DNA from: Diplocarpon mali
Lineage: Eukaryota; Ascomycota; Leotiomycetes; Helotiales; Drepanopezizaceae
Length of the DNA stretch: 40,939 nt
Direction of reading: 5' to 3'
Assembly: GCA_024741835.1 (NCBI GenBank)
Contig: JAENRP010000373.1
Location: forward strand, 1-40,939
The notes under the pieces were generated by a model. The model did no database searches. It was not told the DNA's origin and saw only the letters and a program-made list of their open reading frames with translations. Below, in pieces: positions 917 to 34,769 of the stretch (its first letter is position 1; each line of letters starts with the position of its first letter). Made by a program: the position numbers and the translations under genes.

Positions 917-1290
917 AATTGCGAGCCTAGCTTAGGAGTTGTCTCTAACGAATTTGCGAATTTCACTCGCGGTCCCGGCCTAAGAGTCATTTCTGCGAAT
1001 TTCACTTGCAATCTTAGCCTAAGAGTCGTTATTAGCGAATTTGCAAAATCCACTTGCAGTCCTAGCCTAAGAGTTATTTCTACTAAATTCACTTATAATC
1101 CTAGCTTAGGAGTCATCTTTAAGGACACTTTGCAATCTACTTATAGTCTTGGCTTAAGAGTTATTTTTGCGAATTTTATTCGCAATCCTAGCTTAAGAGT
1201 CCATTTATTCTCCTTATCCTCACTTAATTATATTAGGGCAAAGAGTGCACTTTCCTTAAAGGAATCTACTTATAAGTCCGGCCTAAGAGT
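917..1290 (-). repeat. Array of eight 23-bp palindromic modules in copia A pol
   Basis: Eight copies of a 23-bp core of the form ACTC-N15-GAGT start at 917, 965, 1004, 1052, 1091, 1139, 1178 and 1268. A few copies have decayed edges. Spacings are 48, 39, 48, 39, 48, 39 and 90, so the array is built on an 87-bp (29-codon) higher-order unit, and every spacing is a multiple of three. On the coding (minus) strand each core reads T-L-x-P/L-x-P/L-x-V, the best kept being TLRPGPRVKF. The array lies between the protease and the gag-pre-integrase domain, an interdomain linker. Both strands are open over much of it because the unit is nearly palindromic. Confidence 0.85.
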
Positions 1291-1377
1291 CAATTTCTAT
1301 AATATTACCTTTAAGATAACGTAAAGTCTATCTTTGATTTTAGCTTTAAAAATCACTTTATAATTATTATTTATAAA

Positions 1378-1620
1378 CTATATAAATTGATTATTAAAAA
1401 CTCCTATATAATTCAACTCTATATAGATCTTATAGCTAGATAAAAGATTAATACTTAAGCTAGGTATAAGGAGAATATTTTGCAAAAGGAAAGAAACGCT
1501 AGCAACATTTATCTTTACTATACCTATTGAATCTATATATAACCTTCTACTGCCAACCTTAATAAAGCGCCTTTTTATTTTGATAAGCGGGCCTTTAAAT
1601 AGGTAGGGTTTATTAGTCAT
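1378..1620 (-). pseudogene. Copia A aspartic protease segment
   Basis: An 80-codon stretch without stops on the minus strand. Its end reads LLQNILLIPSLSINLLSSYK, the conserved L-x-N-V-L-x-x-P-x-x-x-x-N-L-L-S stretch that closes copia proteases. The middle (IDSIGIVKI) fits the G-x-G-x-V flap. The catalytic D-S-G-A motif should lie just upstream (above 1620) and is not clearly preserved. The protein would cut the Gag-Pol polyprotein. The open stretch is a chance survivor inside a RIP-damaged gene, since stops occur on both sides; its first Met need not be a real start. Confidence 0.7.
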
Positions 1621-2817
1621 ATATGCTATATAACTAGTATTACTATACTAATCGAATTTAAGGATCTTATAAAGATCGGCTTTTAAAACGTAGGCATCTT
1701 TATTATAATTATTATTTAAATTATCAAAAGTAGATTTAGGTTTAAATAACCTACTATTATTATTAAAGGTATCTGCTAAAGTTTTAGCTAAATAGCCTTT
1801 TCCTTTGCCTTTCCTTAGTAGTTACGGCCTTTAGTAGGATAAGGGTAGTTTGCTTCTTAACTTCTGCTTCGATTGCTTTTTAATATTAAAGCTAGCAACT
1901 ATATTAATCAGTTGCCTTTTAACTTTACAATTAGTAATATTATAAGTACTATTATAAAAGTAGTATCCCCGATAAGCTTAAGGGCTCGTCCTACGCTCCT
2001 TCCTCTTCTTAGGCTTATTGTTACCCTATAACGCAGCATTTGCCGATTTAAAGCGTCCTTTAAGGTCTTACTTAATAGTTCAAAGGAGGTCGATCTTCTT
2101 ATAGATCTTAAGGTTAGGTTAGATAAGAAGAGATTGTTTTGCGATAGCAAACTTAAAAGGGAGGCTATTAAGTAGGAAACCAAAAAGCTGAGTTTCTTTA
2201 AAAGTCATAGCTATCTTAGGATCTGCGGCTCTTACTCTCCTCCTTACTTTATATAGTATAGATTAGGTAGAGTCTATATTTATATTTATATCCTTACTAT
2301 CTTTATCTTTTTTATACTAAAATAAAGTGATCTGCTATAGCAGATGCTAGGTATTAAAGGCAATTGTTTAAGAGTATTTTACCTTTAATATATCCTATCT
2401 TATCTTTGCATTATTATAAACTCAAATAAAATCTTAGTCTTTATCGCTTAAACCTCTATTAATCTTAAGCTTATATTTGGCTAAGGCTAGCCTATACTCC
2501 TTCTCCTTTTCCACATTTAAAATCTGCCTTTAGGATTCTTAGTTATTATCTACTAAAGCTCTTAAGCTAAGCTTATTTAATATATTTGGCAAATCCTTAG
2601 CAGTTGTATTAGCTATTAAAGTAGAAGTAGACAAATCAGTAGAAGGAGTATAAAGGGCTATTCTTACGTATTTAATAAGTGTCTTTTAAATCGCTATTTT
2701 AATGCCTTTGCTCTTAAAGTAAAGCTTTAAATCGTCGAACTATTGTTGCTAGTTCTTCCGAAAGAGTTAAAGGTCTTTAGGCTTAGTGTTTCGATCGGAA
2801 TCGGAAGCCATTACCAT
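1621..2817 (-). pseudogene. Copia A gag remnant
   Basis: Begins at an ATG at 2817 (MVMASDSDRNTKPKDL, then a TAA where Gln is likely; a second ATG is at 2811). The next residues, a short hydrophilic stretch then FDDLKLYFKSKGIKI, resemble the N-terminus of copia Gag proteins. Gag would form the particle that packages the element RNA. A Tyr/Cys-rich stretch around 1990-1900 may be a ruined zinc knuckle, but the spacing is not convincing. TAA/TAG stops recur throughout. A 91-codon open frame at 2183-1908 lies in another frame and is judged incidental. Confidence 0.55.
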
Positions 2818-3369
2818 TTCAAATAGAATTGCATTTAAAATCAAATAAATTAAATAGTTAAAGGCACTCCTCCTATTGAAAAGTTGAAATGATTAAATAG
2901 CAGGTATTATAAAAGTATTAAATAGGGAGGAAGTCCTTTTATCGAAAAGGGTTTTTAGGCTATAACGCAGGGAATCATACCTCTTATAAAATATAGTAAA
3001 GTAAGGAATCATACCTCTTGCAGTACTAAAGGGTTATAAAGCAAGGAATCATACCTCTTATAATACAAGTTAGCTAAATAGGGAATTACACCTCCTATTC
3101 GCCGATTGCTCGCCTCTTACTATAAGTCTTATTCAACTTCCTACTAATAGTTATAGCGCAAGTGCTTTCTAAGGGAAGTTAATAATCTATTATTAGTCTA
3201 TTTAAGGCTTATAACCTATTAAGCTTAAGTAAGTTAGTGCAGTAGGTATAGGAAACTTCTAAAGGTCGATAGTCGATATATTAGTAAGAGTTAAGGAAGG
3301 AAGGTTACCCCTTTCTTCCCTATAGCTATATACGTATCAATATCCTACTAACTAAGCAGTAGGGTCACA
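2818..3369 (-). repeat. Copia A 5' LTR and leader region
   Basis: About 550 bp of non-coding DNA upstream of A gag. If the minus-strand TGTGACCC at 3369 is the LTR start, this stretch holds the 5' LTR and the untranslated leader. The other LTR is outside the window, so the inner LTR edge and primer-binding site cannot be placed. It contains the 34-40 bp tandem repeat described separately. Confidence 0.45.
2971..3100 (-). repeat. Four tandem copies of a GAGGTATGATTCC-type repeat in the A leader/LTR
   Basis: On the plus strand, GGAATCATACCTCTT (last copy GGAATTACACCTCCT) begins at 2971, 3005, 3045 and 3082, so the period is 34-40 bp. The core is well kept while the spacers vary. Short tandem repeats in the U3 part of retrotransposon LTRs often act as enhancers; that role here is inference. 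Confidence 0.65.
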
Positions 3370-3672
3370 TGATAATATATCGGAGTAATAGCTGTATCAC
3401 CCATCTCAACAATTATATCAATTGGTTCTTAAGCTTAATAAAGCGAAGCCTTATAAGCTCCTTATTAAAGGTAACCCTTAGAGTATACGCCTCGCTCAGA
3501 GGAGTAGGCAATTATACTAATCTAAGAGCATTAAGTAAAGGCAAGGTAAAGAAGACTCTCGAGGGGAGTATTAAAAAGTGCCCTTGCCCTTAGGTCAAAA
3601 ATCACTTCTGGATCCTAGAGGAGTATAATAGGCTGAAATACGCCTTAACTAGCGCTAAAGAAGGTACGCTTC
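3370..3672 (+). pseudogene. Copia C gag fragment with zinc-finger-like motif
   Basis: A 74-codon frame (3369-3593), then a TAG, then the same frame runs to 3672. The sequence KKCPCP at its end, followed after the stop by VKNHFW, matches a C-P-C-x-x-x-x-x-H-x-W motif. The same motif appears as CPCGGFKNHY in copia B (near 9790). It is therefore taken as the C-terminal part of gag. It is cut on the left by A and on the right by B, and the frame resumes at 11262. The N-terminal gag and 5' LTR of C must lie beyond A, outside the window. Confidence 0.6.
3668..3672. repeat. TSD of element B, left copy
   Basis: GCTTC next to the LTR start TGTGGTGC; identical to the bases after the right LTR (11257-11261). 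Five base pairs is the usual TSD length for LTR elements. Confidence 0.9.
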
Positions 3673-3869
3673 TGTGGTGCGGTCGGCTGGAGGGCCTTCA
3701 TTAGGTCGCTTAGGAGGCTCGCTAATATAAATAAAGATAATTAATTGTATTATTATCTAGTATATATATAGTAAGGAGACTTCGGAAAGAAAAGGGAGAG
3801 TCTATGACTTAGCAAAGTCATATAGAGGGTCTTTAGAATAAGTGGAGACTCCGCCTATTTTATATAATA
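3673..3869 (-). repeat. Copia B LTR, left copy (3' LTR)
   Basis: 197 bp. On the plus strand it begins TGTGGTGCGG and ends TATATAATA, which aligns base for base with the other LTR's CTGCACGACA through transitions only. The termini are inverted-repeat-like (TGTGGTGC and GCACGACA). This copy has lost more C and G at its right end than the other copy. Confidence 0.9.
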
Positions 3870-3882
3870 TACCCCTTAATTA
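3870..3882 (-). promoter_or_regulatory. Polypurine tract of copia B
   Basis: On the minus strand the 13 bases TAATTAAGGGGTA directly precede the 3' LTR. The AATTAAGGGGT core recurs at the end of copia D pol (34640-34650), which supports its role as the plus-strand DNA primer. Confidence 0.7.
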
Positions 3883-4199
3883 GGCGATGCTCTTAAAATT
3901 GCTTAGCTATATAGATAAAATAAAAGAAAGAATGGCAGTTATAAAGAAAAGAGGCTTTATCTTATATGCTGCTCTTTTAAAGGTCGTTCCTTTTAAAATA
4001 AAAAGGGTTGCTATAGGCAATAAGCGCGCTTAGGAATCTTTGCGATTCTATACTAGTACTCTATTAGGCTTCCTATAAAGTATTTCTATTGCAAAGGTTC
4101 TCCTTCCCTTCTTTTAAAAATAACCCTCCTTTATTATTTAAAAATATCATCTTTATATTAATAATTTTAAATATAAAAGGAACTCTTGCTTATTATAGC
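3883..4199. other. Non-coding stretch of element B
   Basis: AT-rich DNA between the polypurine tract and the GC-richer accessory ORF. I see no motif beyond RIP-type base composition. It may hold the decayed end of the accessory gene. Confidence 0.4.
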
Positions 4200-5160
4200 C
4201 CTGGCCGCCCTTGTAAAGTAAGACCCTTAGAGTCTCTATACCCTACGTTATTATACTAACTTTACGCTAGGTCGCTAGCGCTCCTCAGGGAGTAGGAACC
4301 CTAGCCTAGTTGTCCTAGCGCCTGCTAGGCAATAAGCCGCCGCTGCTATCCCTGCCGCCCCTGCTGCCGCCGCTACCGCCGCTGCCGCTTAAGAGCCCTG
4401 CCCTTACTACGCATTATATGCTAAAGCCTATAATAGAATATAATAACGCGTGTATATATTATATTATATATAAGAGTACTAGCAATCTCAATTGTTAGTA
4501 CTTTAATAGCACCTTTAGTATGCGTTATATCTATTATACTATGCTAAGTAATAGCTGCTAATAAGCTAGCGGCCTTCTCCTTGCCTCCTAGGAGGCTATT
4601 GTATTAGCTTACGCCTATAGCGCCTTTAAAGAGGAGGTAGTACTATTATTTAATATAATAAAAGGTACGCTTTAGAGCTTCTATAGTATATTTATCGAGT
4701 CTTATTAAATTCTAAGTTAATTTTAAAAGATAGGAGCAATCGGACCCTAGTGCTAAGAGGGCCTGCTACTCTTGCAAGTAGTAGTACTACTGCCTCCCTT
4801 GCTCTTAGCATACTATTTGCATTCGCTCTTAGCCTATCCTCCGCCGCCTTATTCCCTCCCTTCGCCGCCGCCGCTCTTATCCCTGCTGCTACTGCTAACG
4901 CCGACCCGTTTGTATCTCCGTTCGTCTCCTTAGCCCTTGCTATCGCCGCGCCCGCCTTCGCCCCTACCGCCCTCGCCCCTGTCGCCCTTGCCGCACCCCC
5001 TGCCTTCGCCCCTGCTGTCGCTAGTATATTCGCCAGCGGGCCTCTGGCTAAGGGAGTGCTAATAGGCCTCTCTTAAGAGGAGATCTATGCAAAGCTCTTG
5101 GCTATAATATCTTAGCTCTTAGCCCTAGTTAGGAGAATTTAAGAGAGGGTTGCGCCTTGC
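4200..5160 (+). pseudogene. Antisense accessory ORF of copia B
   Basis: Runs opposite to B pol, between pol and the 3' LTR. It is GC-richer than its surroundings. A Pro/Ala-rich part (4330-4390) is followed by a segment near 4496-4560 (YFNSTFSMRYIYYTM). Near 4620-4730 comes KEEVVLLFNIIKGTL, then a long Ala/Pro-rich tail open from 4750 to 5076 in an adjacent frame. Two segments match the antisense ORF of copia C: YFNS-x4-RY-x-YY, and KE-x-VVLL ahead of KGTL, in the same order. I recognise no known family. Shared sequence in two diverged elements argues for a real protein before RIP. The frame changes mean the exact exon or frame structure is unsure. Confidence 0.55.
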
Positions 5161-5339
5161 AATAGTAGCTTAAGAACATTACCTATTTTATATTTTTAAA
5201 AAAGGAGAAGCTTTTATAATACGCTTTATAAGAGAAAACAAATGAATATAACTATAAAAGAGTAAGAGCTTATAAGTATAAGTCTTTTAATAATAAGTAA
5301 TTACTTGCTAGTAAGTGCAAGTTATTAAATAATTATTTA

Positions 5340-5980
5340 AAAGCTTTAGAGGTTTAATAAATGAATAAAGCTCTTAAACTTCTAGCGGTCTAGGTTCTTA
5401 ATAAGCCTATCTGCATATATCTCCTTAGTAAGGAGGTAGATTATTTAAAAGCTTCTTCTTTAGTACTCTTAGCGGATTTATATATTATTGATTTTAATAT
5501 ATTAAAGGCTTATTTTGATCTTCTTATTCTTTATAATAATTAGCCGAATTGTCTATTAGTTATTATAATATATATTCTATTTAAAGAAGGAGTCTATATG
5601 AATCTCTTTAAAGAGGCGTTTTATAGCTATTATCTCTTTTGCAATAGATACTATATTATAAAGTTCTGCTTTAGTAGAGGAGAGCGTAATAGTTGCTTAG
5701 CGATTCGCTTTTTAAATAATCGGTCCTTTAAATAGGAAGAAGACGTATCCTTAAAAGGATCTGCAGGTCTTTTAATTATCTTTAAAAGAAGCGTCTAAAG
5801 ATGCGACCAATTAGTATTCCTTAGCTTTAAAGCTATAGGCAATTCAAGAAGTGCGTATTATATAAGTATTAAAGCGTCTAGTCCGCGGTTAAAAGGTACT
5901 TAGAGCTTAAATTAATTAAGAAGAAAGATAATTAAAAGGCTATAAATGCAATATCTAGGTGTATTATAATTACTATATAA
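5340..5980 (-). pseudogene. Copia B RNase H domain
   Basis: Minus-strand frame with TAA/TAG stops. It contains a C-x-SF-x-GYVFFLFKGPII segment, then ATITLSSTKAELYNIVSIAK, the copia RNase H motif (S-S-T-E-A-E-L/Y with a catalytic acidic residue; here the first E reads K, a G-to-A change). It ends with a KFKSFIHLLNL stretch equal to the C-terminal end of copia C pol (KFKSFIKLLNL). The domain would remove RNA from the RNA:DNA hybrid during reverse transcription. Confidence 0.75.
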
Positions 5981-6800
5981 AGAATAGAGCCTATTTTCTT
6001 TTAATACTCCTTTACCTTTTCTAAAAAAGCTTGCCCTAAGTTCTTAATAAACTCCTTCTTTAATAGTAAAGTATTAGGCACTCTTCTTATATTAGCTCTA
6101 AACTTTTAAGCGATCTTCTTAATATAAGTATTATAAACTAAAGAGATCCTCTTTACCTTTTTATTTTAAATAATCCTTACTCTAAGGAACTAGGAGATAT
6201 CTCTTATAATAGTAAGCTTATACGCCCTCTTTAGGTCTTTAATTAGATAAGTCGCCTAATTTAAGTTAAAGGCCTTATATAATACTTAAATATTATTAAT
6301 ATAAAACGCTATAAAGACTATGCGATCCTTTATTATAAAAATACAAGGCTCCTTACTTAGTAGCTTAAGTTAAAGGCCCTTAAGCGTTCTTGCGAAGTTC
6401 CTATACTATAGTGCTAGAGAGTCTTTTAGCCTATAGAGCGCGCGATCCAGTTCTACTACTATACTAGGGCGCTTAAAGCTATCTAGTAGAAAGCATATAA
6501 CTAGAGCACTCCTTAGGTCTTTAAAAGTGTTAATAAACACATTAATAATATCGAATTGCTTTACTTCTATATTAAAGTACGCGGTAAGCGCTATTAGTAC
6601 CTTAAAAGAACTTGCTATAAGCGTAGTTGTATAGGTTAAGAAAATTAAAGCTTTATCTTAAAGATCCCCTTGTATAATTAGCTATAATCGGCACTTTAAA
6701 AGCTTGCCAGAGCTATTGACCTTATAAGTAAAAACCCATTTTAATAGTATCGGTAGGGACTTTAAGTAATCCCTTTATACGATTCTTTAGCAACTCTAAG
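5981..6800 (-). pseudogene. Copia B reverse transcriptase
   Basis: Minus-strand frame. The segment FKVLIALTAYFNIEVKQFDI, followed by INVFINT, is the copia RT motif around the first catalytic Asp (QFDVVNAFLN in relatives). Further on come DRALYRLKDSLALQY (Y-G-L-K-Q-S-P-x-x-W in relatives) and AFYINN, where the catalytic Y-V-D-D has become Y-I-N-N. Both Asp losses are G-to-A changes, as RIP makes. The enzyme would copy the element RNA into DNA; this copy is dead. Confidence 0.85.
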
Positions 6801-8099
6801 ATTCTAGATTCTTAATCTTTTAACGCCTTCCTTCTTTAAATCGTTTACTAAAAGGGTACTTCTTTAGGTCTTGCTATCCTTTTAAAGGCTTTAGTAGAGA
6901 GCCTTAGTGCTATAGGCGGTTAGAAGATTATACTCTATCCTTTGTCTAACTATCAATTATAGCTTTAATAATTATATAAATTGTTAAATAGTCCTTCCTA
7001 TCCTCCTTTATCTATTCGTTCGCTTAGAAGGTCGATATAAACTCCTATGTATATAAGGAGTAAGGTAAATTAATATTACTTTAAGAGAGTATATACTCTA
7101 AAGTAGTAGTATATACTTTTAAAGTCTCCTATTACTTAATATTTAAGTGTCTTATTCTCTTTTACTTAAGAAGAGGGAGTTCCTTCTTGCGCTTTTTTCT
7201 ATAGGTCTCCTCCTCTATTTTTATTATTGCTAAAGGTTCCTTTAAAAGTCTAAGTAGCTCTATCTCCTAAGCCTATAGTCTTTGAGCTAGTATTATAACT
7301 TAAGGTATTATATTATTAAGGCCTACTCCTTTTACTAGGTTGCTTTTTATAAGACTATTAAAGCTTCTTCCGAATCTTAGTAGTAGTGCCTCTAGCCTTC
7401 TACTAGAGTTTATTAAGGCCTACCTTTATAACTAAAGATTCTATTTTAAAGCCCTTAAGCTATCTCTATTCTTATATAGAATAGCAGCTAGAGATCTGCC
7501 GATCGCCTTATAGAACTTGTCTTTAAAGACTCCTTTAAAGTCGTCTATAGTTCCTTCTTTAATAAGGCTTTTATAAGGAATTATTACCCTTAAGCTCTGG
7601 TTGCTATCTGCCTTCTTAAAGACTGGCGAAGTAGCTTCTAGTTCGCTTACTTCTACTTTTAAGTTTCTAAGTAGGTCTTTTAAAGAATTTAGATTTAAAT
7701 TAAGGCCTTTTATATTATTAATTAAAGGCTATAGAGTAGCGTCGGTTTATAATATAGGCTCTTCTTATATAGCGGCTTCTTCTGCGGCGATTGCGTTTAG
7801 CCTTATAATAAGCTCTAATTCCTTAAAAATGCCTTTGAACTTAGCATCTTAAGCTCCTTCTCCCTTTCTGATCAATTAAAGGGTTATCTTAAGTTCTTAG
7901 CGCGATATAGGGTTTGCGCACTTAACTTTTAGACTATAGAAGAGAGACTTATCGAATTTGATATTATAAGTTATTATTACTCGCTAAAGTATAAGAACTC
8001 AGATTCTATAAATATTAAAGGTAATATATCTAACTAAGTAACTTAAGTACCTTTATAGTTTAATTTTAAAGGTTCGGCGGTCCTTCCTTGCCTTCTTCT
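6801..8099 (-). pseudogene. Copia B integrase C-terminal region and linker to RT
   Basis: About 1.3 kb between the integrase core and RT on the minus strand. In copia elements this region carries the SH3-like integrase C-terminal domain and a poorly conserved linker. I could not fix a clear motif in it. An 83-codon plus-strand open frame at 7601-7852 is a shadow. The 23-bp module of A, D, E1 and E2 is not found here. Confidence 0.5.
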
Positions 8100-8760
8100 C
8101 TTTAATTAAAGGGTATACGCAAGCGCTATATATTTAAATATGACTTTAGTTAGGCTTTAAGCTTGCTATTATCTACTTAATAAGTAGCAGCTTATAGAAT
8201 TGAAAATACTATTTAAACCAATTATAAAGAGCCTTGCTTAATAAGATCATCTTCTTCCTAGCAAGTAGGGAGATATTATAAAGGTATATAGTAGCCTCTA
8301 CTACCTTTAGCCAAAGGCTTGCTAAAAGCCTAGCGTAAATCCTTATTTTAATAAAGCGTTTAATCAACTCCTTTCCTACTTACTTTGCGCTTCTATTAGG
8401 TTAATATATATAAGTAGGAGTAAGCTTTAAATCGATTCCCTCCTCTTTTACCTATCTTTAGTACTTTATAAAAGAGTCTTCTCTTAAGGAGATTATTAAA
8501 GTATTATTATCTTACCTAATCTTGCAAATAGAAAGCTTATATTAGCATTTTACTTATGCTTTAAAGGCTTAAAGGACCTTTATAACTACGTCTTTGCCCT
8601 TCGATCTTAATAGGAATGTCTAAAGCATACTACTATACTTATCCTTAATTAAAAGAACTTATAAGCAACTATTATATAAGTTATTTAAAAAGTTAAAGAG
8701 ATCCTAGGAGATCTTAAAGAAGGGCTTTAAAGATTAGTTCTTAAAGGTAGCATAAGAAAT
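8100..8760 (-). pseudogene. Copia B integrase core
   Basis: Minus-strand frame with a D-D-E layout. The first Asp is in DLFNFLNNL, with LLIKDKYS following. The second is in a DNNTLIISL context. The third site lies in GKELIKR, after a P-N-R-S motif (P-N-G in relatives). Copia C has the same blocks (DLFDYNTLS, LLIKDEFS, NNNTLVF, GAEIIKK), so B and C belong to one lineage though they are well diverged. Stops are TAA/TAG at Gln or Trp sites. The protein would join cDNA ends to the target, giving the 5-bp TSDs. Confidence 0.8.
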
Positions 8761-9560
8761 AACTTGCCTAGCAGACGCTACTGCGCATATAGGGTACTTT
8801 AGCCTTTATATTCCCCTAATCTTCACTCTCCTAGTGCACTTGACTAGCGCTTAAAGAGCCTCTGCGCTTAGGTAGCTAGCGTAAAGGTGCTAAGTATATA
8901 CATTATTATCCCGCACCCTAATAGGTATATAGCTAGACTAGAACCTATTATAAAGTATTATCTTAGCTATAGGAAACGCTATTAAAGTAAAGAAGTCATA
9001 TTAAAGTATATTTAGAAGATCTAAATAATTAATAAGCTTATATTTAAAGAAAACGAGATTATAGTAACGCTTTAATTAAGCTTGCTTTATAGAATCTCTA
9101 ATGCTTTTAAAGCGCAAAGTAAGGTCTACCCTAAAGTACTAAAAACCCTTATCCGTAAGGAGCCTTTTTAAGATAATATTAATAGTAAACTCCTTTATAA
9201 TAGTAATATTATAAAGCATTATCTCTATAGGAGAGCTATTACGCTATAGAAGAGAGTCTGCTATATATCTATTACCTCTCCTAATGATTAGGAGTCTTAA
9301 GGTACCTACTTTAATATATTGCTATAAGTCGCCAGAAGGCTTAAAGGTGCTTGCGATAAGTAAATCCTTCGAATTAATAATATAAGTAGCCGCGTAATTA
9401 TTAAAGAGCGTACTTAAGGAGAGCGGGTGGCGTTCCAGCTTAAAGAGGTAGTAGATATTGAACGATTCTTCAAAAGTATTAAAGGCAAAGGGATCTATTA
9501 CTATAAAGACTGGTGAGTTCTTCCTTTTGCCTAAACCATCCTCTTCAAAGGCTGAAGCCT
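8761..9560 (-). pseudogene. Copia B protease and gag-pre-integrase region
   Basis: Minus-strand frame. FIVIDPFAFNTF near 9510 may be the former catalytic segment. The block IMLYNITIIKEFTINIILKR (about 9225-9165) matches the L-x-N-V-x-x-x-P-x-x-x-x-N-L-L-S stretch of copia proteases and has its counterpart in copia C. A Cys-containing segment near 8800 (YPICAVASARQ) fits the C-x-x-C region of the gag-pre-integrase domain. Function by family: polyprotein processing. No intact frame. Confidence 0.6.
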
Positions 9561-10990
9561 TTCTTTTAAATTTATCAATTACTATTACTATAATATCATT
9601 TTCCTTAAGTTATACTTAGAGACCCTTAAACTGGTCTCTTGCGTTTAACGCCTTTTGTATTCGTAGGACCTCCTCTTGCAAGGGGAGAACCTTTATATTT
9701 TCCTTGCGCCTATCTATAGTATATAACAGTTTCCGATAGTCCTAGGGCTTTTAATAGTGATTTTTAAAGCCTCCACAAGGGCACTTAGGCCTAATCTCCC
9801 TTCTGGGGCTTATAGAGCGATTTCAAGAGCTGCTTACTAGAGCCTGCAAAGGGGTTTCGGCATTTAAGAGAGACTCTTAAGTAGTAAAAACTACTAGCCC
9901 TTTATTATTAATTGCTTTATTAGATTCAATGCTAGCCAAGGCGCGACTTAGCTGCATTAGGTTATACTTATATAAGGTTCCTATCTACTTATTAATAATA
10001 ATTTCCTCCTTTAAGCGAGTCGCCTAATTCAGATTGATCTTTATTATAACTAAGTCTAAAAAGTCAGTTACTCTTAGTCTCCCTTTAATCTTAGGGAGAT
10101 TGTATTATTCTATTAAGTAGTATGCCTCCTGCTACTCCCAGATCTACTGCTAAGTATTAGTTCTTTTAGTCTTACCTTAGTATAGTACGTCGCGGTATTA
10201 AAGCCTTGTCTAAGACTGAATAGCCTTATCAAAAGGCGTAATATCACACTTTAAAATAGATACTAGGCCTTAGAGTAAGAGTTGCTAATTCACTAAAATA
10301 GAATGTAGGTCGTTAGCAGTAGTTCTAATTATAAGAGTATCTTTATCAAGTATTAAGAAGGAGAGCTTCTTAGCTTGGATTTATACTTAAGCTATCGCAG
10401 AAGCTAAGAGCGTTTTATTAACAGTTTTAAAGACCTATTCTAAGAGTAGCTTATAGTATTTGCATTAGGTCTTTTAAGTTTCCTTATATATATAGTACTC
10501 CTTTATTAGGATTTTATATTTATCTTTAATATCCTTATAAGAAGCTTATAGAAGAGGAGCCTTTAATAGATCTCCTAAGGGAAAGTAGGCGTAAATCTAT
10601 TCAAATGGAGTTGCTATATACTCTTTATACAACCTTGCGTATACTATACAAAGGTTAGCCGTTTCCAATTCCTTAAGCTCTTATATAAAGGAAGCTTAAG
10701 GCTTGGTCTCTATAATTGACTTAAATAAGAGTCTCAGATTGGCAAAAATAGTAATATTATAAAGCTTAGCGAAGAATATATATTTACTAAACCACTTTAC
10801 TTAAGAGGCAGAAGTATTAAGGCGAGGTTTAGAGATGCTTAAAACGTTAGATATATTAAATAGAGTCTAATAAAAAAGGGTAGGTATATAGATAAAGTTT
10901 GCAAATAAGATTCGATCGGAAATTGGAGATTTATTAATTAAAAATAAAGGTCCTTTGAGTTATTATAAGTACTCGAAAAGTCAGTCAAAA
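9561..10990 (-). pseudogene. Copia B gag
   Basis: Minus-strand frame from about 10950. The frame shows YNITIFANLRLLFKSIIETK and, further on, ELKELETANLCIVYARLYKE, a helical pattern typical of copia Gag. Near 9790 the motif CPCGGFKNHY lies in front of protease and matches CPCP-x-x-KNHF of copia C. The ATG start is not certain, since RIP would turn ATG into ATA on one strand. Gag would build the particle. Confidence 0.6.
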
Positions 10991-11059
10991 GCTCGAAGGG
11001 CCCTTTAGCCGGTTATATGCAAAGAGAAAGCATATTAAAGTGCTTATAGGACTTATAAC
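10991..11059 (-). other. Copia B leader with primer-binding site position
   Basis: Directly inside the 5' LTR on the minus strand the sequence reads GTTATAAGTCCTATAAGCAC. This is where the primer-binding site must lie. RIP changes prevent naming the tRNA. Confidence 0.4.
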
Positions 11060-25190: not shown

Positions 25191-25460
25191 AGATAAGTTT
25201 AGGAACCTCCTGCCCTAATTAAAGTGCTATTAGAATAGGAGGAATAAGAGATAAAAGAAATAATTAGATCTTATATTCAAGCTAAGAAGCTCAAATATCA
25301 GATTAAGTAGAAAGGAGCTAATAAAGACCTCGAATAGTACCTATGCTCTAATACTATAATAGCGCTATATGCTATTTGAAATTTCCATTTAAAAAACCCT
25401 TAAGCTAAAGGGCTACCAAGGGCACTATTAAGCTAGCTTAGGTCATATAATAATAGAGTT
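25191..25460 (+). pseudogene. E1 integrase chromodomain
   Basis: A frame after the GPY/F part reads EIKEIIRSYIQAKKLKYQIK, a TAG (Trp in relatives), KGANKDLE, a TAG, then YLCSN. This is the chromodomain pattern E-x-E-x-I-L-D-x-R-x-x-x-x-x-x-x-Y-x-V-K-W-K-G. The domain binds modified histone tails and guides chromovirus insertion to heterochromatin, which suits the nested layout here. Aromatic cage Trp codons have become TAG. Confidence 0.82.
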
Positions 25461-25523
25461 GACGATTATAGGGAACTAAAGGATAATACGCCTATAGATA
25501 TAATTGCGCAGGCGCAGTTTTTC

Positions 25524-25537
25524 AAAGGGGGGGGTAG
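25524..25537 (+). promoter_or_regulatory. E1 polypurine tract
   Basis: AAAGGGGGGGGTAG directly before the 3' LTR start at 25538. E2 has AAAGGGGGGAGGTAG in the same place. It would prime plus-strand synthesis. Confidence 0.85.
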
Positions 25538-25789
25538 TATTACAGCCGCATTATATGCATATTATATAAACGGTTATATTACGTATCAAAGTCAAATGCA
25601 CGCTAAAGTAGCGAGGTAGCTAGATCACGTGCACGCTAGTAAAGTACCTGTACTTATTCTAAAGGAGCTCTACTAAAGACTCTCTCTTCTTCTTCATCTT
25701 TTCTTCTTTATTATATAGCGTACCTCTTAAGGTAATATAGTCAGCGTTCGATTCTCGACCTACTATACGCTCCAGAGCAAGTCGTAATA
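25538..25789 (+). repeat. E1 3' LTR
   Basis: 252 bp, starting TATTACAGCC (TGTTACGGCC in the 5' copy) and ending GAGCAAGTCGTAATA. It is followed by the TSD at 25790-25794. Confidence 0.93.
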
Positions 25790-26913: not shown

Positions 26914-27163
26914 TATTACGGCCGCATCATATATACGGTTATATCACATATCGGTCAGGTGCATAAAGTCAGGTGCACGCTAAGGTAGTAAGGTAGCTAG
27001 ATCATATATACGCTAGTAAAGCACTTATACTTATTCTAGAGGAGTTCTATTAAAGACTCTCTTTTCTTTATCTTTTCTTTTCTATTATATAGCATACCTC
27101 TTAAGGTAATACAGTTAGCGTTCGATTCTCGCCCTATTATATATTCTAAAGTAAGTTGTAATA
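26914..27163 (+). repeat. E2 5' LTR
   Basis: 250 bp, TATTACGGCCGCATC to GTTGTAATA. More mutated than the 3' copy, which ends GTCGTAACA. The self-priming tract ATCTTTTCTT is at 27070-27079. Confidence 0.92.
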
Positions 27164-27164
27164 T

Positions 27165-27174
27165 AAGAAAAGAT
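27165..27174 (+). promoter_or_regulatory. Putative self-primed primer-binding site of E2
   Basis: AAGAAAAGAT one base inside the LTR edge, reverse complement of ATCTTTTCTT at 27070-27079. Same geometry as in E1. Confidence 0.45.
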
Positions 27175-28160
27175 TAACTCAACCTTTGCTAAGAAGCTTG
27201 ATATTTACCTCCTTTAGAATCGTCACTTCGAACTACCTTAAGCAACTCGATCTCGACTCTTCTACTACAAACTGCCTTAAGCAACTTGTATATAGCGCCT
27301 AGATCTTACTAATCTAGTTTTCAAAGAAAGCTAAATAACAACCTTCGAATATAAGATCAGTTCGTTTTTTCGACCCTTTACCTATTCTATTTAGCAAACG
27401 GAGATTTACCTTTAATTTCAATTCGAAAAAAATTTATTTACTATACCCTCGCTTTGCTAGCATAGGCTGCTGCCTAGAGCAGTATAATAGCTTTTCTCTT
27501 TTTGACTTTCTCCCTCCTTTATAAATAACTCTATATTACTCTTTTTTATCGACCTTATACTTATTGATAATATACTTATCGATAACTCTCCTTATACTCT
27601 TCAAAGCTCTTTACTTCTTCTTTCGAAACCCTTGAATACAACTCGACTCTTTAAAGATACCTCCTTGCGAATAAGTCGTCGACCTTCTCTATACTTCCTA
27701 TCGACCTATACTTATCGACCTATACTTATCGACTCTTCCTTATACTTTTCGAAGCTCCTTACTCCTTCTTTCGAATACTTAGGTACGAAACTAAAGGACC
27801 TATACTTATATATATATATAGAGACTTAGTCAGCCTTAATAGGTTATACTATACTATTAAAGACTAGGTCAACTTTAGTAGAGTAATAAGCTTTAGATCC
27901 TTAGACCTTACTTCCCTAGATTTGCACTGCACCCTTAGGCAACCTTATTATAACTCTTAATTAGTGAAGAGACGTGATCCTAAAGTAAAACCTTCTTTCT
28001 TAAGATCTATAAATCTATAATACCTTAATATATACTCTACTAGAAGGCTTTAAGAACGTATATAGCTTTGCCTATACTAATCTTCTCCCTTTTAAATAGG
28101 TTACTATTTAGTATTAAGTCCCTTTAAACTAAATTAGATAATATAAAGAGAGTTAATACT
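27175..28160 (+). other. E2 leader region
   Basis: About 1 kb matching the E1 leader. It contains a tandem CGACCTATACTTAT repeat near 27700-27730 and the small ORF at 27632-27829. No other gene is visible. Confidence 0.5.
27632..27829 (+). CDS. Small leader ORF of E2 (65 aa)
   Basis: Counterpart of the 67-aa frame in E1 at the same distance from the LTR, with the same start (MNTTRLFKD) and end (DLYLYIYIET). Substitutions and small in-frame length changes separate the two. Product unknown; it may be an upstream ORF, a Gag start, or chance. Confidence 0.3.
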   Translation: MNTTRLFKDTSLRISRRPSLYFLSTYTYRPILIDSSLYFSKLLTPSFEYLGTKLKDLYLYIYIET

Positions 28161-28199
28161 TAGGACCTTTAATCTTATACCACTTAGGAGAAGTAAAAG

Positions 28200-29550
28200 G
28201 TTAACCGCACCTCTACTAGGCCTTACTGCTACTAGTTCCAGTTCTATAGGCCTTACTGCCAATCCTAGTCCTAAAGATATTCCCCCTCCGGAGCTCACTT
28301 AAGAAGCTACCTCCTTTAATACAGACTTTACTCTTAGGCCCGGCCTATAAGTAGATTCTTAAAATACTTCCCTTCTATTAATTAAAGTTAAGGAAGAACT
28401 GATATCTACCTTTACTATATTAGCCCCTCTCTTTTTAGCTGCTTAATAGGTTGAAATTGCGAACCTTATTAGTACTGCTATAGCCGCTGCTCTTTAAAAT
28501 AATACTACTGCCCCTTCTTCCTTAAGTACTAGCCCTTGGAATACTTAATCCTTTACCGCCGACTTACTACCTCCCTTAGACTATTACCTCCTGATTATTA
28601 GACCTTTAATCCTAGCTATCGACTCTTATTAAATTAAGTACCCTTAAACCTATTTTAGTAACTATTAAGGCGAAATTACTTATAACGCTTAAAAGATAGC
28701 TATAAAGGTATTTATTTAAAAGTACTTAAGTAACTTTACTTTAAGAAAGGATTAAATCACTACCTACTTTAAATATATAATAGGTAAAGCTTAAAACCTA
28801 ATCTTATAATATATAGATCCTATCTTTACTAGTAAGTTTATATACGCTATTAATATCCTTAAGGTCTTAGATCAAAGGTTCTTTAATTATAACTATATTT
28901 AATTTGCTAAGCTTAAATATAATAGGCTAACTATAGGTTTAATATTATATAATAAGTTTTAATTTAAATTCGTTACTTTTATTATAATTAGTAAGATCGA
29001 TTAGTCTCGCTAGTTCGATAATATTTGTAAAAAGGTCTCCTTAGCCTTAAAGAATGACCTTTAAGTAAAGAAGTATAAAATAAATAATAATTATACTACT
29101 TTAGATAAGTTCTTAACTATTGCAGACCGCAAGGCTTATAATATTAAATAAGAAGAAGCTTATAATACTTGATAAATCGCCTTTGCTATTGCGTTCTTCC
29201 CTTTAAAGGACCGCGTCCTTAGTATATTAAAAAGGGAGTTATAAAGACCTATAGCTATAGCTACTTCCTTAGCTCCTTATACTTATTCCCTTTTGCCGGC
29301 GGCCTATTGAAAAAGGTCTATTAGCCCGAAGCTGTTGTCTGGTCTCTATTATAACTACAGAGCCCTTAATCACTATGCAATAGATTACTTTAAGTTAAAG
29401 AAGTAGGGCGAGTTTATAATAGTTAAAGTTAAGATAGAAAACGACCTGCTATTAGGAAACTGCTAAGCTATGGTAAAGACTCTTACTATAGTATAAGTTA
29501 CAATTTATAAAAAGACTTAGATTTTGATTCTTGCCTATTGATAGGCGGCT
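28200..29550 (+). pseudogene. E2 gag with zinc knuckle
   Basis: Matches E1 gag in order: short Ser/Thr minisatellite, one module (28330-28352, TLRPGL-x-V), capsid-like part (about 28600-29250) and zinc knuckle (about 29341-29382, YYNYRALNHYAIDY). Here the His of C-x2-C-x4-H-x4-C is kept while Cys residues read Tyr, the complement of the damage in E1. Many TAA/TAG stops. Confidence 0.8.
28330..28352 (+). repeat. 23-bp module in E2 gag
   Basis: ACTCTTAGGCCCGGCCTATA plus AGT; orthologous to 20045-20067 in E1. Confidence 0.8.
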
Positions 29551-30095
29551 GCTAATTCTTAGTTCTTATAGAATTAGCTTAAAATAGATCATTTATTAAA
29601 ATAGTTGCTTATATTAATAGTAGAGCTAATATTTTTAGTATTATTAAGACGTCTTTAGTATATTAGCTCTCTTAAAGACTTAAGGTAAAGTTTATTAAAC
29701 TGCTTAAACTAATTACCCCTACTAGCTATAATAGCTTTAAAGGAGAAACTATTCAATTCGCTATCTTACTTACCTTTATAATTAATAGGCGATAAATAAA
29801 CTTCCCTTTTTTAATTATAAGCTTAAAAGCAATCGACGTTTTGATTAATAGGAAGTTCTTAAAGCACTATAACCTTAAATAGTCTTATGAAAGGGGAAAA
29901 AATAGTATCTCTTAGCTTAAGGATATACCTATTATCTCTTACTTTAATTGATATATACTAATCGATCTCTTATAGCTAATAAAACCCTTAATAGCCTAGT
30001 AAGATATCGATTGTTAAGCAGCTATAATAGATGCTAAGGACGAAGACCTAAGAATAGCCTAAGCCTAGCTCTTGGTACTAATAAGTAATAACTCG
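29551..30095 (+). pseudogene. E2 aspartic protease
   Basis: INSRANIF (about 29619) again has Asn for the catalytic Asp. FLIISLKAIDVLINRKFL (about 29808-29861) is the conserved protease end. Same role and same loss as in E1; since the D-to-N change is shared, it may predate the split or be a repeated RIP hit. Confidence 0.72.
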
Positions 30096-30101
30096 AATTC
30101 T

Positions 30102-30214
30102 ACTTTTAGTCCTAACTTATAAGTAAAATCTGCGAACTCGAATCCTACTCTTAGTCTTAGCCTGCGAGTAAAAACTGCAAACTCGAATTCCACTCTTAGT
30201 CCTAGCTTATAAGT
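30102..30214 (+). repeat. Three in-frame 23-bp modules in the E2 protease-RT linker
   Basis: Cores start at 30102, 30147 and 30192, spaced 45 bp. E1 has four. The middle copy keeps GCGAGT, showing that GAGT is the older form of the right arm. Confidence 0.88.
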
Positions 30215-31545
30215 AACCTCTTATAGACTTAAGGATAGCAGTTTCTTTAAAGACTTAAAAAGAGATCTGAACTATATAAAGAAGGCCTTACTAAGAGTAT
30301 TAAACCCTTTGCTCCCTTTCTTAATAAAGAGGAATGTTCTTTTAAAACCGGCTTATTAGATTAGCCTAATCTTAGCTTTAGCAATTAGCGCCCTTTACTA
30401 CTGCTTTATAACTAAGGTAAGATAAGCTATATAAATTTAAGAATTAGCGCTTAAAGAGTTTATATTCGTAAGCTCTATTTACAATCTAGATTGAGAAATC
30501 AATCGCTAAGAAATCAATTGCTAAGAATTGGCTAAGTAAGCTAAAATTAGCTCCTTTAGCTTTAGTTCGGCGCTATAAGCCAAGTATAAGAGCAATAATA
30601 AGCTAATAGACTAGAAGCTCTCGCCTTAATATACTAAGTTTAAGAACGTCTTTAATCGCTAGGCCTTTAATCAGCTGCCGAAACCCAGGCTAAGGGTAGA
30701 TTATAAAATCGAGCTAATAAGCGAGAATAACTTAATAATTAAGCCCCTCTACCGCCTTACTAATAAATAGCTCTTAAAGGTCAAGAGCTATATTCTTAAG
30801 AACTTATATAAAGGATTTATTAAAGCTTTAAGTTCCTTTTAAGTAGCCCTAATCCTCTTTATTAGAAAAGCTAATAGCTCTTTATATCTTTACGTTAACT
30901 ATTAGAAACTGAACGCTTTAATAAAGAAAGACCCTTACCTAATTCCCTTTATTAATAAGATAATAGTATATATATTAAAAGCTTATGTTTTTATAAAAAT
31001 CGATATATAATAAGCCTTTTACTATATTTGCATATTAGCTGACGCTAAGGACCTAACTACTTTTCATATATATTATAGAACCTATAAATGTAAGGTTTTG
31101 CTATTTAAGCTGATAAATAGGCCTGCTACCTTTTAGTGGTTTATTAATAATATTCTCTTTAATTACCTTGACGATTTCTGCTCTACCTACTTAAATAATA
31201 TTCTAATCTACTTAGAAAACTCCCTTAATTATAAGATTTATATTAAGAAGATCTTAGGAATTCTCTAATGCTATAGCCTTTAAGTAGATATTAAGAAAAG
31301 CGAGTTTAAGGTTATTAAAACTAGGTTCTTAGGGTTTATTATTAGAGTTTATAGAATTGAGGTAGACTTTAATAAGGTCTTAGTTATTTAAGAGTAGAAA
31401 TACGCTAAGAATATATATGGTATATAAAGTTTCTTAGGGTTCTATAACTTCTATTAAAGGTTTATTAAAGGCTATAGTTATATTTGCCGACCTTTAATAG
31501 CTCTTATAGGAAATATTCCTTTTGATTTTAATAACGCTTATAAGG
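30215..31545 (+). pseudogene. E2 reverse transcriptase
   Basis: Same motif series as E1: ALILFIRKANSSLYL near 30848, FIKIDI near 30990, and TYLNNILIYL with Y-L-N-N at 31188-31199. Both Asp of the Y-L-D-D box are lost here, against one in E1. SFLGFYNFY near 31430 closes the domain. Confidence 0.9.
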
Positions 31546-32093
31546 AAGCTTAAGAAGCTTTGCGCTTAAGCTTTTAAATGACCTCGATTTTATACTACTA
31601 TTACCTTTAGAAGCAGATAAGGCTTAAGACCAACGCCTTTAATAGTATAGTTGCTAATATACTCTCCTAACTTTAGGAAGATAATAACTACTACTTAATT
31701 GGGTACTTCTTAAAGATGATAAATAACGCTAAGCTAAATTACCCTATTTATAATAAGGAGCTCTTAGCGATTTTTAAATCGTTCTATTAGTATAAGGCAG
31801 AGCTACTTAAGGCTTAGAAAATAGTATATATATATATAGATTATAAAGCCCTTAAGTACTTTATAATAACTAAGGACTTAATAGTCTAGTAGGCTCGCTA
31901 GGCAGAGTTCTTCGCTAACTTCAACTTCCTTATTATATACCGAACTAGTATAACAAATACGCTAGTTGATATACTCTTACGTTGAGACTAGGAGCTGACC
32001 TCTCTTAAGGCTAGGAAACGAGCTTTATACTACTAGCAGCTCTTACTTAACGATAAGCTCTTTATAAAAGTACTCGCTACTAAAGGCGATTCT
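31546..32093 (+). pseudogene. E2 RNase H
   Basis: LKTNAFNSIVANILS-like sequence (about 31625) has Asn for the first Asp, and YNKELLAIFKSFYQYK-like sequence (about 31750) keeps the Glu. The tether leads to the module at 32094-32116. Confidence 0.82.
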
Positions 32094-32116
32094 ACTCCTA
32101 GGCCTAGCCTACGAGT
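32094..32116 (+). repeat. 23-bp module at the E2 RNase H-integrase boundary
   Basis: ACTCCTAGGCCTAGCCTACG plus AGT, reading TPRPSLRV in frame. It keeps both 4-bp arms exactly. Confidence 0.88.
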
Positions 32117-33430
32117 GATAAGTGTACTAATTACATTAATAAAGGCACTTGCCGACCTAATGTCTAAGGTTAAGTATAATATGGCGAACTACTATATTAT
32201 CGATAAGGTTATTCAAGCTAATAAGACTTCCCTTAAGCTATAGAAGTTCCGAGATAAGGCGTAGAGCTATAGCCTCAATTATAAACTCAGCTAAGGTAAA
32301 CTCTTCTTTTAAGGTAGACTCGTTATACTATTATAACCTCTTGAACTATAAACAGCCCTAATTTATTATATATATAAGTAACTATGCGTTATATATGCTA
32401 GAATTGGGAAAATAAGGCTTCTAATAGGAAGAAAATACTATTGGAAAAGCCTTAGTAGCGACGTTAGCACTTATATCTAGAACTGTTATTATTTAAGAAT
32501 AAAAGCTTATTATAATAAGACCTTAGGTTTCTTATAACCCTTGCTAATTCCTGAATAAGTATACTAATACTTAACTATGGATTTTATAAAGCTCTTGCTT
32601 AACGAACTCGGCTACGACTTTGCACTAGTGATAATAGACCAATTGTTAAAGAAGGTAGTATCGATCTTATGCTATAAGACAGTTGATACAAAAGGCCTTA
32701 TAGAATTGTTTTTAATTTACTAGATCTGCTATTTTAGTATGCCTGATTCGATTCTATTAAATAGAGGCGCTTAATTTGTCTCTTCCTTTTAAAAAGAACT
32801 CTATTAGATACTAAGTATAAAGATTAAGCTAATTATAGCTTATAACCTTAATATTAATAGGCAAACTAAGATTATAAACTAATACTTAAAATAACGCCTT
32901 AGACCGTTCTACTTATACTATTAAGACAATTAGAGTTATCTCTTGCCTTTGATAGATATTACCTAATTAACCTTGCCTTATAAATCCCTAGGGCAAATTT
33001 CCCCTTTTTAAGTGCTAAATGGCTACGAAGCTCGCTCCTCTTGGAATTTAATTAACCTAGAGCCTTTATAGATAGCAATTAAGAGAGTAAATTGTAAAAT
33101 AGCGCTCTATATAGCTATTAGAGCTTAAAAAGTAGTTTAATTCATTTAATTATCTCTTTAAGTATAATAAGCTAAAATGAAATAGCTTGCAGATCTTTAC
33201 CGCTAGCCAATTGATTAGACTATAGGAGATAATATGCTAATTAGTATTAAAAATTAGAAACTGGACCGGCCGAGCCAAAAGCTCTCTAATAAGTAGTATA
33301 GCCTAGTAAAAGTATTAGAAAAGCTAAGAGAAAGCTAAAAGCTATAATTGCCTGATTCGCTTTATTCAATCTACTTTATATTCTATTCCCACTTACTGCG
33401 AAAATATATTCCTAACCCTTTGCTAGGCTA
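32117..33430 (+). pseudogene. E2 integrase
   Basis: H2C2 zone near 32370-32480. The core has MDFIKLLLNELGYDFALVII (about 32579-32638), then a segment corresponding to LLDKGAQF in which Asp now reads Asn (LNRGA, about 32758), and an N-I-N-R-Q-T-K-I segment with Glu read as Lys. A Pro-rich GPY/F-like end follows near 33350-33410. Dead through several G-to-A changes. Confidence 0.85.
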
Positions 33431-33690
33431 AGCTTAGGAACCTCCTACTTTAATTAAAGTATTGCTAGAATAAGAGGAGTAGGAGATAGAAGAAATAATT
33501 GGATCTTATATTTAAGCTAAGAAGCTCGAATATCAAATTAAGTAGAAGGGAACTAATAAAGACCTTAAATAGTACCTATACTCTAACGCTATAACAGCGC
33601 CGTATACTATTTGAGATTTCCATTTAAAAAACGCTTAAGCTAAAGGGCTACTAAGGGCACTATCAAGCTAGCTTAGGTCATATAATAATA
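33431..33690 (+). pseudogene. E2 integrase chromodomain
   Basis: Same pattern as E1: EEIIGSYI, AKKLEYQIK, a TAG at a Trp site, then a KG-x-NKDL segment. Confirms that the chromodomain is a fixed part of the family. Confidence 0.78.
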
Positions 33691-33758
33691 GGATTGACAA
33701 TTATAAGGACCTAGAGGATAATACGCCTATAGATATAACTGCGCGGGCGCAGTTTTTC

Positions 33759-33773
33759 AAAGGGGGGAGGTAG
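33759..33773 (+). promoter_or_regulatory. E2 polypurine tract
   Basis: AAAGGGGGGAGGTAG just before the 3' LTR at 33774. Confidence 0.82.
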
Positions 33774-34023
33774 TATTATAGCCGCATTATATGCATAGTT
33801 ATATTATATATCAGTTAGGTGTATAAAGTCAGGTGCACGCTAAGGTAGCAAGGTGGCTAGATCATATGCACGCTAATAAAGCATCTATACTTATTCTAAA
33901 GGAGTTCTATTAAAGACTTTCTCTTCTTTATCTTTTCTTTTCTATTATATAGCATACCTCTTGAGGTAATACAGTTAGCGTTCGATTCTCGCCCCACTGT
34001 ACGCTCCAGAGCAAGTCGTAACA
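33774..34023 (+). repeat. E2 3' LTR
   Basis: 250 bp, TATTATAGCC to GTCGTAACA. Its right half is close to the un-RIPed solo LTR (GCCCCACTGTACGCTCCAGAGC). Confidence 0.92.
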
Positions 34024-34028
34024 CTCTA
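34024..34028. repeat. TSD of E2, right copy
   Basis: CTCTA against CTTTA at 26909-26913. Confidence 0.8.
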
Positions 34029-34645
34029 TTCTTAGCAAATTCCTTACTAACCCTTTGCTATAATATATGGCAGCTTTAAAACGAGTTTTATAATACTTAT
34101 AAGGAATACGATTCTATTATACTACCTTTGGAAGTAAAACAATTGACCTAAAGCTTTAGAAATTGTATAGCTACTACGATTCTAACTAGGTAGGTAATAG
34201 AAGAACTAGAGCCTCCTATTCTAGGGCTATCTTCTTCCTTAATAATAGTGTAATTACCGCCTCCTCTAAGTGATAAACTATCGTCGCTCTCTTATTTATA
34301 AAGGTAGAGTACGTCGCTATATGCAAATTCGCATAAGAAGCCTCTTAAATACGCTAGGTACTTAAGGAAATAGGCTATGCTAGTAATAACGCTACTAAAG
34401 TTGAGATGATCTGCGATAACTAAAGAGCCCTTTATCTTACTGAAAACCCCAAATATTATTAGAGAATAAAGCATATTAATATCAAGTTCTATTATATTCG
34501 GCAAGAGCTTTAGAAAGGCCATTTGGACCTTTGGTATACAAATATTAAAGATAACGCCGCCGACGGCCTTACTAAGAGCTTAAATAGCTCCAACTATGCC
34601 GCCTTTATTAAATTGTTAAATATGAAGGTTCTGCACCTTAATTAA
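34029..34645 (+). pseudogene. Copia D pol part 4: RNase H and end of pol
   Basis: Continues the D frame after E2. YSYYDSN (about 34165) with VGNRRTRASYSRAIFFLN is the copia RNase H start. VEYVAICKFA (about 34303) has the Glu, and MICDNQRALYLTENPKYY-like sequence (about 34408) the D-N-Q motif. RIKHINIKFYYIRQEL-like sequence and DNAADGLTKSLNSSNYAAFI (about 34545-34604) close it, and the frame stops at TAA 34642-34644 after KVLHLN. The catalytic acids D, E and D are kept, with only scattered TAG/TAA codons, so this is the best preserved domain of the window. A 76-codon minus-strand frame here is a shadow. Confidence 0.92.
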
Positions 34646-34769
34646 GGGGTGATTTTTTTTATACCTCTATTATAAGGTGATTTTTTTTTTTTTTTTTTAC
34701 TTCTATTAAGGGGTGATTTTTTTTTACTCCTGGGCCGGGCCCGCGAGTTGATTTTGACTTACTAAGGGG
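34640..34769 (+). repeat. Reiterated polypurine-tract/LTR-start block at the end of D, with one module
   Basis: AATTAAGGGGTGATTTT directly follows the pol stop and matches the polypurine tract of copia B. The block AAG(GG)GTGATTT recurs with starts at 34644, 34674, 34708 and 34764. An 18-T run fills 34681-34698. After the third block comes a full 23-bp module (34726-34748, ACTCCTGGGCCGGGCCCGCG plus AGT), the most GC-rich of all copies and here outside a coding frame. Confidence 0.75.

Follow-up and report, generated by a model that had tools for sequence, protein, structure and literature searches.

Contig JAENRP010000373.1 (C373) of the Diplocarpon mali assembly GCA_024741835.1 carries a short palindromic module, with the core ACTC-N15-GAGT, inside long terminal repeat (LTR) retrotransposons of both the copia and the gypsy superfamily. 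The window, meaning this whole contig of 40,939 bp, belongs to an assembly of 49.37 Mb in 676 contigs. For a kinesin encoded on tile L014, identity to Diplocarpon coronariae entries is 100% over 97% of the part used as query, against 97% (P0006) and 92% (P0077) for D. rosae; D. coronariae (Helotiales), the agent of apple blotch, is accordingly the most likely host. Across that assembly the module follows a strict symmetric motif and is present in hundreds of copies, in carriers of both superfamilies, in both orientations and in more than one frame; its two halves vary independently, and it has been multiplied by tandem and segmental duplication. It may well be a dyad-symmetric site to which a dimeric protein binds and which LTR elements of both superfamilies have retained and multiplied; this is the reading that we favour, tentatively and from the sequence. 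The module is not merely the peptide module that was first considered, and the finding is larger than first noted.

Genome-wide, the strict search pattern matches 542 times forward and 572 times in reverse, whereas the reversed-pattern control has no match in either direction. The self-complementary degenerate motif ACTCNYRGKCCNGGMCYRNGAGT is found in 649 strict copies (control 0), and every one of these 23-bp copies also fits a 27-bp form, YNACTCNYRGKCCNGGMCYRNGAGTNR: a pyrimidine (Y) stands at position -2 and a purine (R) at +2 in 649/649, although these positions were not used in the search and, with random flanks, only about one copy in four would comply. Counted per flank cluster, the two positions agree in 20.9 and 21.0 of 21 clusters. 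The arms alone, with spacers of 12–18 bp, occur 6978 times genome-wide against 3238 for the control. Among the 66 distinct arm-pair places listed, all of them on contig C1, a spacer of 15 accounts for 27 and each of the six other lengths for 3–9; from this we infer roughly two thousand exact-arm copies in the genome.

In 20 sampled tiles of 10 kb, one per 15th contig from C5 to C290 (0.2 Mb), a loose filter gave 17 matches, of which 15 sit in 1-kb stretches of 25–34% GC. The two others (L020 and L026; 47–51% GC) depart from the inner motif, and in the GC-rich, gene-like parts of these 0.2 Mb there is no motif-fitting match at all. The window DNA itself bears a decay signature like that of repeat-induced point mutation (RIP), with CpA at 0.35 and TpG at 0.40 of expectation, compared with 1.07 and 1.01 in the gene-rich tile L014, and the arms of many window modules were accepted as RIP-decayed. 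It is worth noting that the GC-rich form of the module, ACTCCCGGTCCGGGACCGCGAGT, is without CpA or TpG; it thus offers no preferred RIP target and stands out in decayed elements. The GC content of less mutated, module-carrying copies of one element, copia D, reaches 45% (L055). In a viral collection one stretch matches the undegraded pattern, and a loose rescan gave a single match in that stretch. In a prokaryote collection 26 stretches match, and the loose rescan gave a single match in 21 of them, a second, weaker match in three (L066, L076, L083) and none above its filter in two (L063, L079). These matches are read as chance in GC-rich genomes of such volume.

In the window, the original prediction had counted 23 cores of exactly 23 bp. 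All of them are found at their places, and the tally per element is borne out as well: eight in copia A, three in the copia D polyprotein, one at the D end, six in gypsy E1 and five in gypsy E2. The count of 23 holds when decayed arms are allowed, as had been said; arms are exact in seven (965, 18122, 18170, 18218, 30147, 32094, 34726) and decayed in the rest. At all other spacings from 9 to 23 the exact-arm count is 0 or 1, and with one arm mismatch allowed there are 35 at a spacing of 15 versus 7–20 elsewhere. A loose score, which also lists much background, includes all 23 places among 43 plus-strand and 45 minus-strand matches; a stricter criterion gives 22, the same places minus 18170, a module with GGCGCC in its middle.

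The copia A modules (917, 965, 1004, 1052, 1091, 1139, 1178 and 1268; 917..1290, coding strand minus) stand mostly in 39/48-bp units in the PR-IN (gag_pre-integrase-like) region and read in frame 1, e.g. TLRPGPRVKFAN; both the region and the superfamily of copia A were assigned by eye from sequence motifs. Up to ten modules are found in this region of copia A. In copia D, three plus-strand modules (18122, 18170 and 18218; 18122..18240) lie at 48-bp spacing and in frame 1 in the linker between integrase and reverse transcriptase (RT), where less mutated copies (L055–L058) read e.g. ..RGDLTPGPGPRVNSHSHDFTPGPGPRV... The end of the linker in these four copies has a basic, AT-hook-like KRGRPP segment, and KRGRPKG stands there in P0001 and P0002 from other sources. 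The last D module (34726..34748, plus strand) is in the 3' untranslated region (3'UTR), downstream of RNase H (34190–34531), and the stop codon ahead of it is seen in the homologous copy L055. Both gypsy elements have their modules on the plus strand. E1 has one in its 5' part (20045..20067), four in an array of 45-bp units upstream of RT (21820, 21865, 21910 and 21955; 21820..21977) and one downstream of RT (23859..23881). E2 has one in its 5' part (28330..28352), three in 45-bp units (30102, 30147 and 30192; 30102..30214) and one downstream of RT (32094..32116). A homologous E array in L028 is in phase with an RT-like piece, the phase being worked out by hand, as were all module phases against coding frames, with tandem arrays counted once.

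Beyond the window, the flanks of 194 unique modules sort into 21 clusters, the largest of which (90) merges several sites and tandem arrays. Carriers were found in five or more families of LTR retrotransposons, both copia and gypsy; their modules lie in polyprotein linkers and, for two copia elements, in 3' regions taken to be untranslated. Copia D, which gives RVT_2 matches, has two modules in its PR-IN region (three copies); the copies read have two or three more in the integrase-RT linker and one past the stop codon. The gypsy E copies read have the 5' site, the 45-bp array ahead of RT and, past RT, one or two units, and an RVT_1 match at C15:102521-103003 is flanked on both sides by E-type modules. 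A second gypsy, F2 (tiles L018, L031, L032), carries several modules; its RT-, RNase H- and integrase-like stretches, which are in frame, were recognised by eye from sequence motifs, not by profile match. In a further copia, an RNase H-like stretch is followed downstream by an array of 61–66-bp units that lacks an open frame; with the D RNase H as query, stretches of 26–30% identity were found upstream of this array in L008, L019, L021, L022 and L028. Pfam gave nothing above cut-off in ten stop-free pieces from module-bearing tiles. As originally claimed, then, a 23-bp unit is common to copia and gypsy, and the descent of the surrounding domains is no explanation; the unit stands at many unrelated positions, in 21 clusters. 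Nor is the unit confined to A, D, E1 and E2, the case in which recombination between those elements had been thought sufficient, because at least two further elements, the second gypsy and the other copia, carry it.

Every polyprotein copy had been described as lying on the coding strand and in one frame; the single frame mostly holds, but both orientations occur. Frame 1 is used at 10 of the 11 coding positions whose phase relative to a coding frame was established (A, D-PR, D-linker, E-array, E-3' and, in F2, five of six), with P = 1.3e-4 under random frames; the remaining F2 position is in frame 2. The E 5' site is not tied to a coding frame, and frame 1 has the fewest stops there in 4/4 copies. 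Unit lengths in coding regions are all multiples of 3 (39, 45, 48, 54, 72, 78 and 90 bp), compared with the 61–66 bp of the 3'UTR array without open frame, which are mostly not multiples of three. These regularities speak for a functional peptide repeat (TPxPGPRV-like) in the polyprotein linkers, selected at the protein level. However, copies also lie outside the coding region (the D module after the stop codon, and the copia array), and the D PR-IN modules are reversed. They are still in frame 1, since a palindrome permits this, but they encode another peptide, T-R-x-P-G-x-G-V. Because of the untranslated and reverse-oriented copies, to which the frame-2 site in F2 may be added, the peptide reading is already largely refuted. 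With the repeat region as query, none of 161 candidate proteins reached E<=1, a weak result in that mutated transposon genes are often unannotated.

The synonymous positions are more telling. A pattern with N at the seven third-codon positions (3, 6, 9, 12, 15, 18 and 21) has 255 + 228 matches (483; control 0/0). Among the 100 of these that were listed, position 3 is T in 100/100 and position 21 is A in 100/100; position 9 is G in 80 and T in 20, position 15 is C in 61 and A in 39, and position 12 is A in 34, G in 34, C in 19 and T in 13. Variation at third-codon positions thus follows the symmetry of the palindrome, not codon degeneracy. A pure peptide would leave all seven positions free, but 3 and 21 are frozen and 9 and 15 limited, so that the pure peptide explanation fails, and selection on the protein as the reason for the repeat is now improbable.

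The two halves of the palindrome vary independently of one another. In the same 100 copies, counted by hand, the combinations at positions 9 and 15 are GC 48, GA 32, TC 13 and TA 7, where 48.8, 31.2, 12.2 and 7.8 are expected. This suits two half-sites that are read separately, not a stem, and symmetric, half-wise independent degeneracy argues for a protein-binding site because a two-fold protein contact produces such a pattern. Among 72 unique exact-arm modules, Watson-Crick pairs number 39 at 9/15 (41.2 expected), 26 at 6/18 (26.0), 59 at 11/13 (55.1) and 40 at 7/17 (34.3), and the small excess at 7/17 is reversed among the 100 listed copies. Stem covariation, sought in these 72 modules and 100 copies, is absent. 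At 5/19 an unpaired C:C is the commonest state (52/72). The unit had been called hairpin-prone, which is therefore only approximately true. In a comparison of 20 clusters, the largest being left out, purine-pyrimidine changes are found at positions 5, 9, 12 and 15, and at 14 in two clusters; the orientation rule holds position 19 constant here, and the way in which modules were detected already gave preference to conserved inner positions.

These counts bear directly on a further possibility, that the module is a hairpin or dimerisation element in the RNA of retrotransposon transcripts, involved in packaging or priming. The self-complementary unit would fit this, and excerpts of PMC5445492 describe a Conserved Hairpin Site in fungal GalEa copia elements. 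That site, though, is of 9+9 bp and lies just after the 5' LTR (CHSeq1/CHSeq2), unlike the modules placed so far, which differ from it in sequence and are located in linkers and 3' regions. With no clear covariation at 9/15, 6/18, 7/17 or 11/13, the mismatch at 5/19, and no Rfam match in four sources (the window, L018, L031 and L028), an RNA role is very unlikely, slightly more so even than the peptide.

The main competitor is an old, mobile mini-element of palindromic form, whose insertions in LTR retrotransposons were later passed on as these were copied. Template switching during reverse transcription was perhaps its insertion route, and frame 1 is open and harmless, so that insertions in it survive. 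A precise unit that recurs across several LTR families at many unrelated positions, in both orientations and mostly in frame, is what such an element would leave behind. Three homologous copia proteins from other sources are without the module; the two from JGI span the whole linker, and the third, from Podosphaera aphanis, ends inside the linker and covers its beginning. Duplication within elements is also evident, both in the tandem arrays of 39/45/48 bp and in the left flank 'attaaggggtgattt', which is shared by the modules of the D linker and the D 3'UTR and makes segmental copying visible.

Empty sites, however, are nearly absent. The searches used flanks joined without the module, and the best 40 of 158–247 candidates were scored for each. 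At the E 5' site 36/36 spanning copies are filled, each with exactly 23 extra bases; of four further copies, two match a single flank only and two match both, but separately. At the F2 site of L047 it is 39/39, plus one left-flank match, and at the L046 site 32/32, with eight more that match the left flank, four of which have the right flank after 24–26 bases. Taken together, 107/107 spanning copies are filled, each site's count including the query's own locus. The D 3'UTR gave 40 spanning matches with net lengths of -6 to +25 relative to the joined flanks, and filled and empty copies cannot be told apart by length because T-runs and repeat units vary. Of two copies that were read, the one on C320 is filled, minus one repeat unit, and the one on C100 is empty. 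The latter (L106, G000:C100:113489-113685) is 90% identical to the module-free junction from L056 and is the one clean empty copy. As the alignment reads, filled and empty forms differ by ~31 bp (the module plus TGATTTTG) and by T-run length, with an ACT triplet at each end of the difference, so that an insertion and a deletion between the two triplets fit equally well. The local matches without insert, in the part inspected, are tandem arrays or alignment shifts, and none was accepted as an empty site.

A target-site duplication was likewise sought: direct repeats in the flanks are not above consensus, 366/2000 shuffles reaching the observed value, or 386/2000 when bases are collapsed to R/Y, in a test of low power with sites merged into 15 groups. 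The original suggestion that the module moves is thus not borne out for the present. Insertion in the past would also predict changes everywhere in a copied unit, not mainly at symmetric positions, and a free mini-element sits poorly with the gene-like sampled DNA, in which nothing fits the motif. For these reasons an old mini-element as the whole explanation is rather unlikely, although it is not exclusive of a binding site, since such a site could spread by copying and then be kept for its function.

If the module is indeed a binding site, it would be a cis-acting, dyad-symmetric 27-bp DNA site, recognised by a dimeric, sequence-specific protein that may be encoded by the host or by the elements. 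LTR retrotransposons of both superfamilies would carry one to about ten such sites each, multiplied by tandem and segmental duplication, and would tolerate them both in the linkers of the polyprotein and in untranslated 3' regions. In these linkers almost only frame-1 insertions would persist, reading as a presumably harmless T..P..V peptide, and the sites would be retained for the binding itself, with, for example, activation or relief of silencing as its effect. In favour of this, sites judged coding, sites judged untranslated and sites in both orientations all obey the motif rule. Two other copia elements of the window are without a module by the stricter criterion, though both adjoin module-bearing elements: copia X (3672..11246, minus strand; 188-bp LTR-like repeats, RT-like stretch 6345–5848) and copia C (11257..16963, plus strand; RT-like stretch 14398–14982). 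That copia and gypsy elements of one fungal lineage carry the site, even in their polyprotein genes, as a common regulatory or anti-silencing address for one single dimeric DNA-binding protein is conceivable, but this extension is more doubtful.

Several points weigh against a binding site. Common ancestry of the sites, of which about 20 are independent, could have preserved the frozen positions; inheritance may account for some of the freezing, given that neither position 3 nor position 21 is a target of RIP or a CpG and that the independent sites are so few. The change at position 14 in 2/20 clusters (largest, merged cluster left out) is a transversion. In RIP traces, the one gauge of local silencing relief here, no protection is seen: at distances of 0–50, 50–150, 150–400, 400–1000 and >1000 bp from modules, (CA+TG)/(AC+GT) is 0.554, 0.567, 0.559, 0.542 and 0.613, so the nearest DNA is no less mutated by RIP. 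A site that acts purely as DNA would not lead one to expect so strong a bias towards frame 1. Finally, occurrence in LTR elements only is weak evidence, because DNA transposons make up just 0.29% of published D. coronariae assemblies, next to copia at ~20% and Ty3 at 6%, according to excerpts of PMC11527701.

As to the setting of the modules, both gypsy elements are nested in copia D on the plus strand. E1 (18556..25789) is bounded by LTR-like direct repeats at 18556–18812 / 25533–25789 (86%) and E2 (26914..34021) by repeats at 26914–27161 / 33774–34021 (87%). Between them, within copia D, lies an inverted E-type LTR-like sequence (26190–26433), which is probably a solo LTR. Just past the D 3'UTR there are AT-rich direct repeats without modules (34767–36245 / 39210–40687), 4.44 kb apart, in which two 300-bp pairs are 96% and 90% identical; possibly these are the LTRs of D or of another element.

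Several known systems resemble the module in part. The likeness to Rickettsia palindromic elements (RPEs), which had been pointed out from the start, lies in palindromic repeats that stand in frame within unrelated coding sequences, and the in-frame behaviour at many unrelated positions supports it; the sampled gene-like DNA, with no motif-fitting match, does not. In the part of PMC10969869 consulted, RPEs are ~150 bp long, bacterial, and in nearly half of cases within host open reading frames, whereas the module has 23–27 bp, is fungal and was met only within LTR retrotransposons. A parallel in another respect is the VANC-binding arrays of Arabidopsis VANDAL elements, also short motifs repeated within elements, multiplied in tandem and common to transposon families. 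Excerpts of PMC5735166 report VANC6 motifs in VANDAL6 and the unrelated AT9TSD1, a precedent for unrelated transposable elements that have in common the target motif of one DNA-binding protein. Those motifs are of 8–9 bp, mainly non-coding, not called palindromic in these excerpts, and have a known, transposon-encoded binder; the module sites, unlike them, sit in coding linkers, and their binder is predicted only.

In fungal mitochondria, GC clusters (yeast GC42 and families in Neurospora and Allomyces, the latter two mentioned in the part of PMC7218506 consulted) are likewise short, often GC-rich palindromes dispersed in fungal DNA. For GC42, excerpts of PMC4478555 give a stem constraint, presence or absence among strains and an AG target site. 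The modules differ from these clusters in that they are without stem covariation, have sites that are almost always filled, and lie in LTR elements over many contigs of the 49.4-Mb assembly. Bacterial REP sequences also amount to hundreds of short palindromes per genome, and are extragenic and associated with tyrosine transposases according to PMC2817692, unlike the module, which is inside retrotransposons. Among the titles and beginnings of abstracts listed (subscription papers and preprints lay outside the search), no such fungal nuclear palindrome was found, only mitochondrial ones.

It is unexpected for transposon families that are unrelated to have a short DNA word in common in their interior. 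The shared motif implies that either a class of tiny palindromic insertions has been overlooked or LTR elements exploit one and the same protein, and both readings bear on the joint evolution of transposon families under RIP and silencing.

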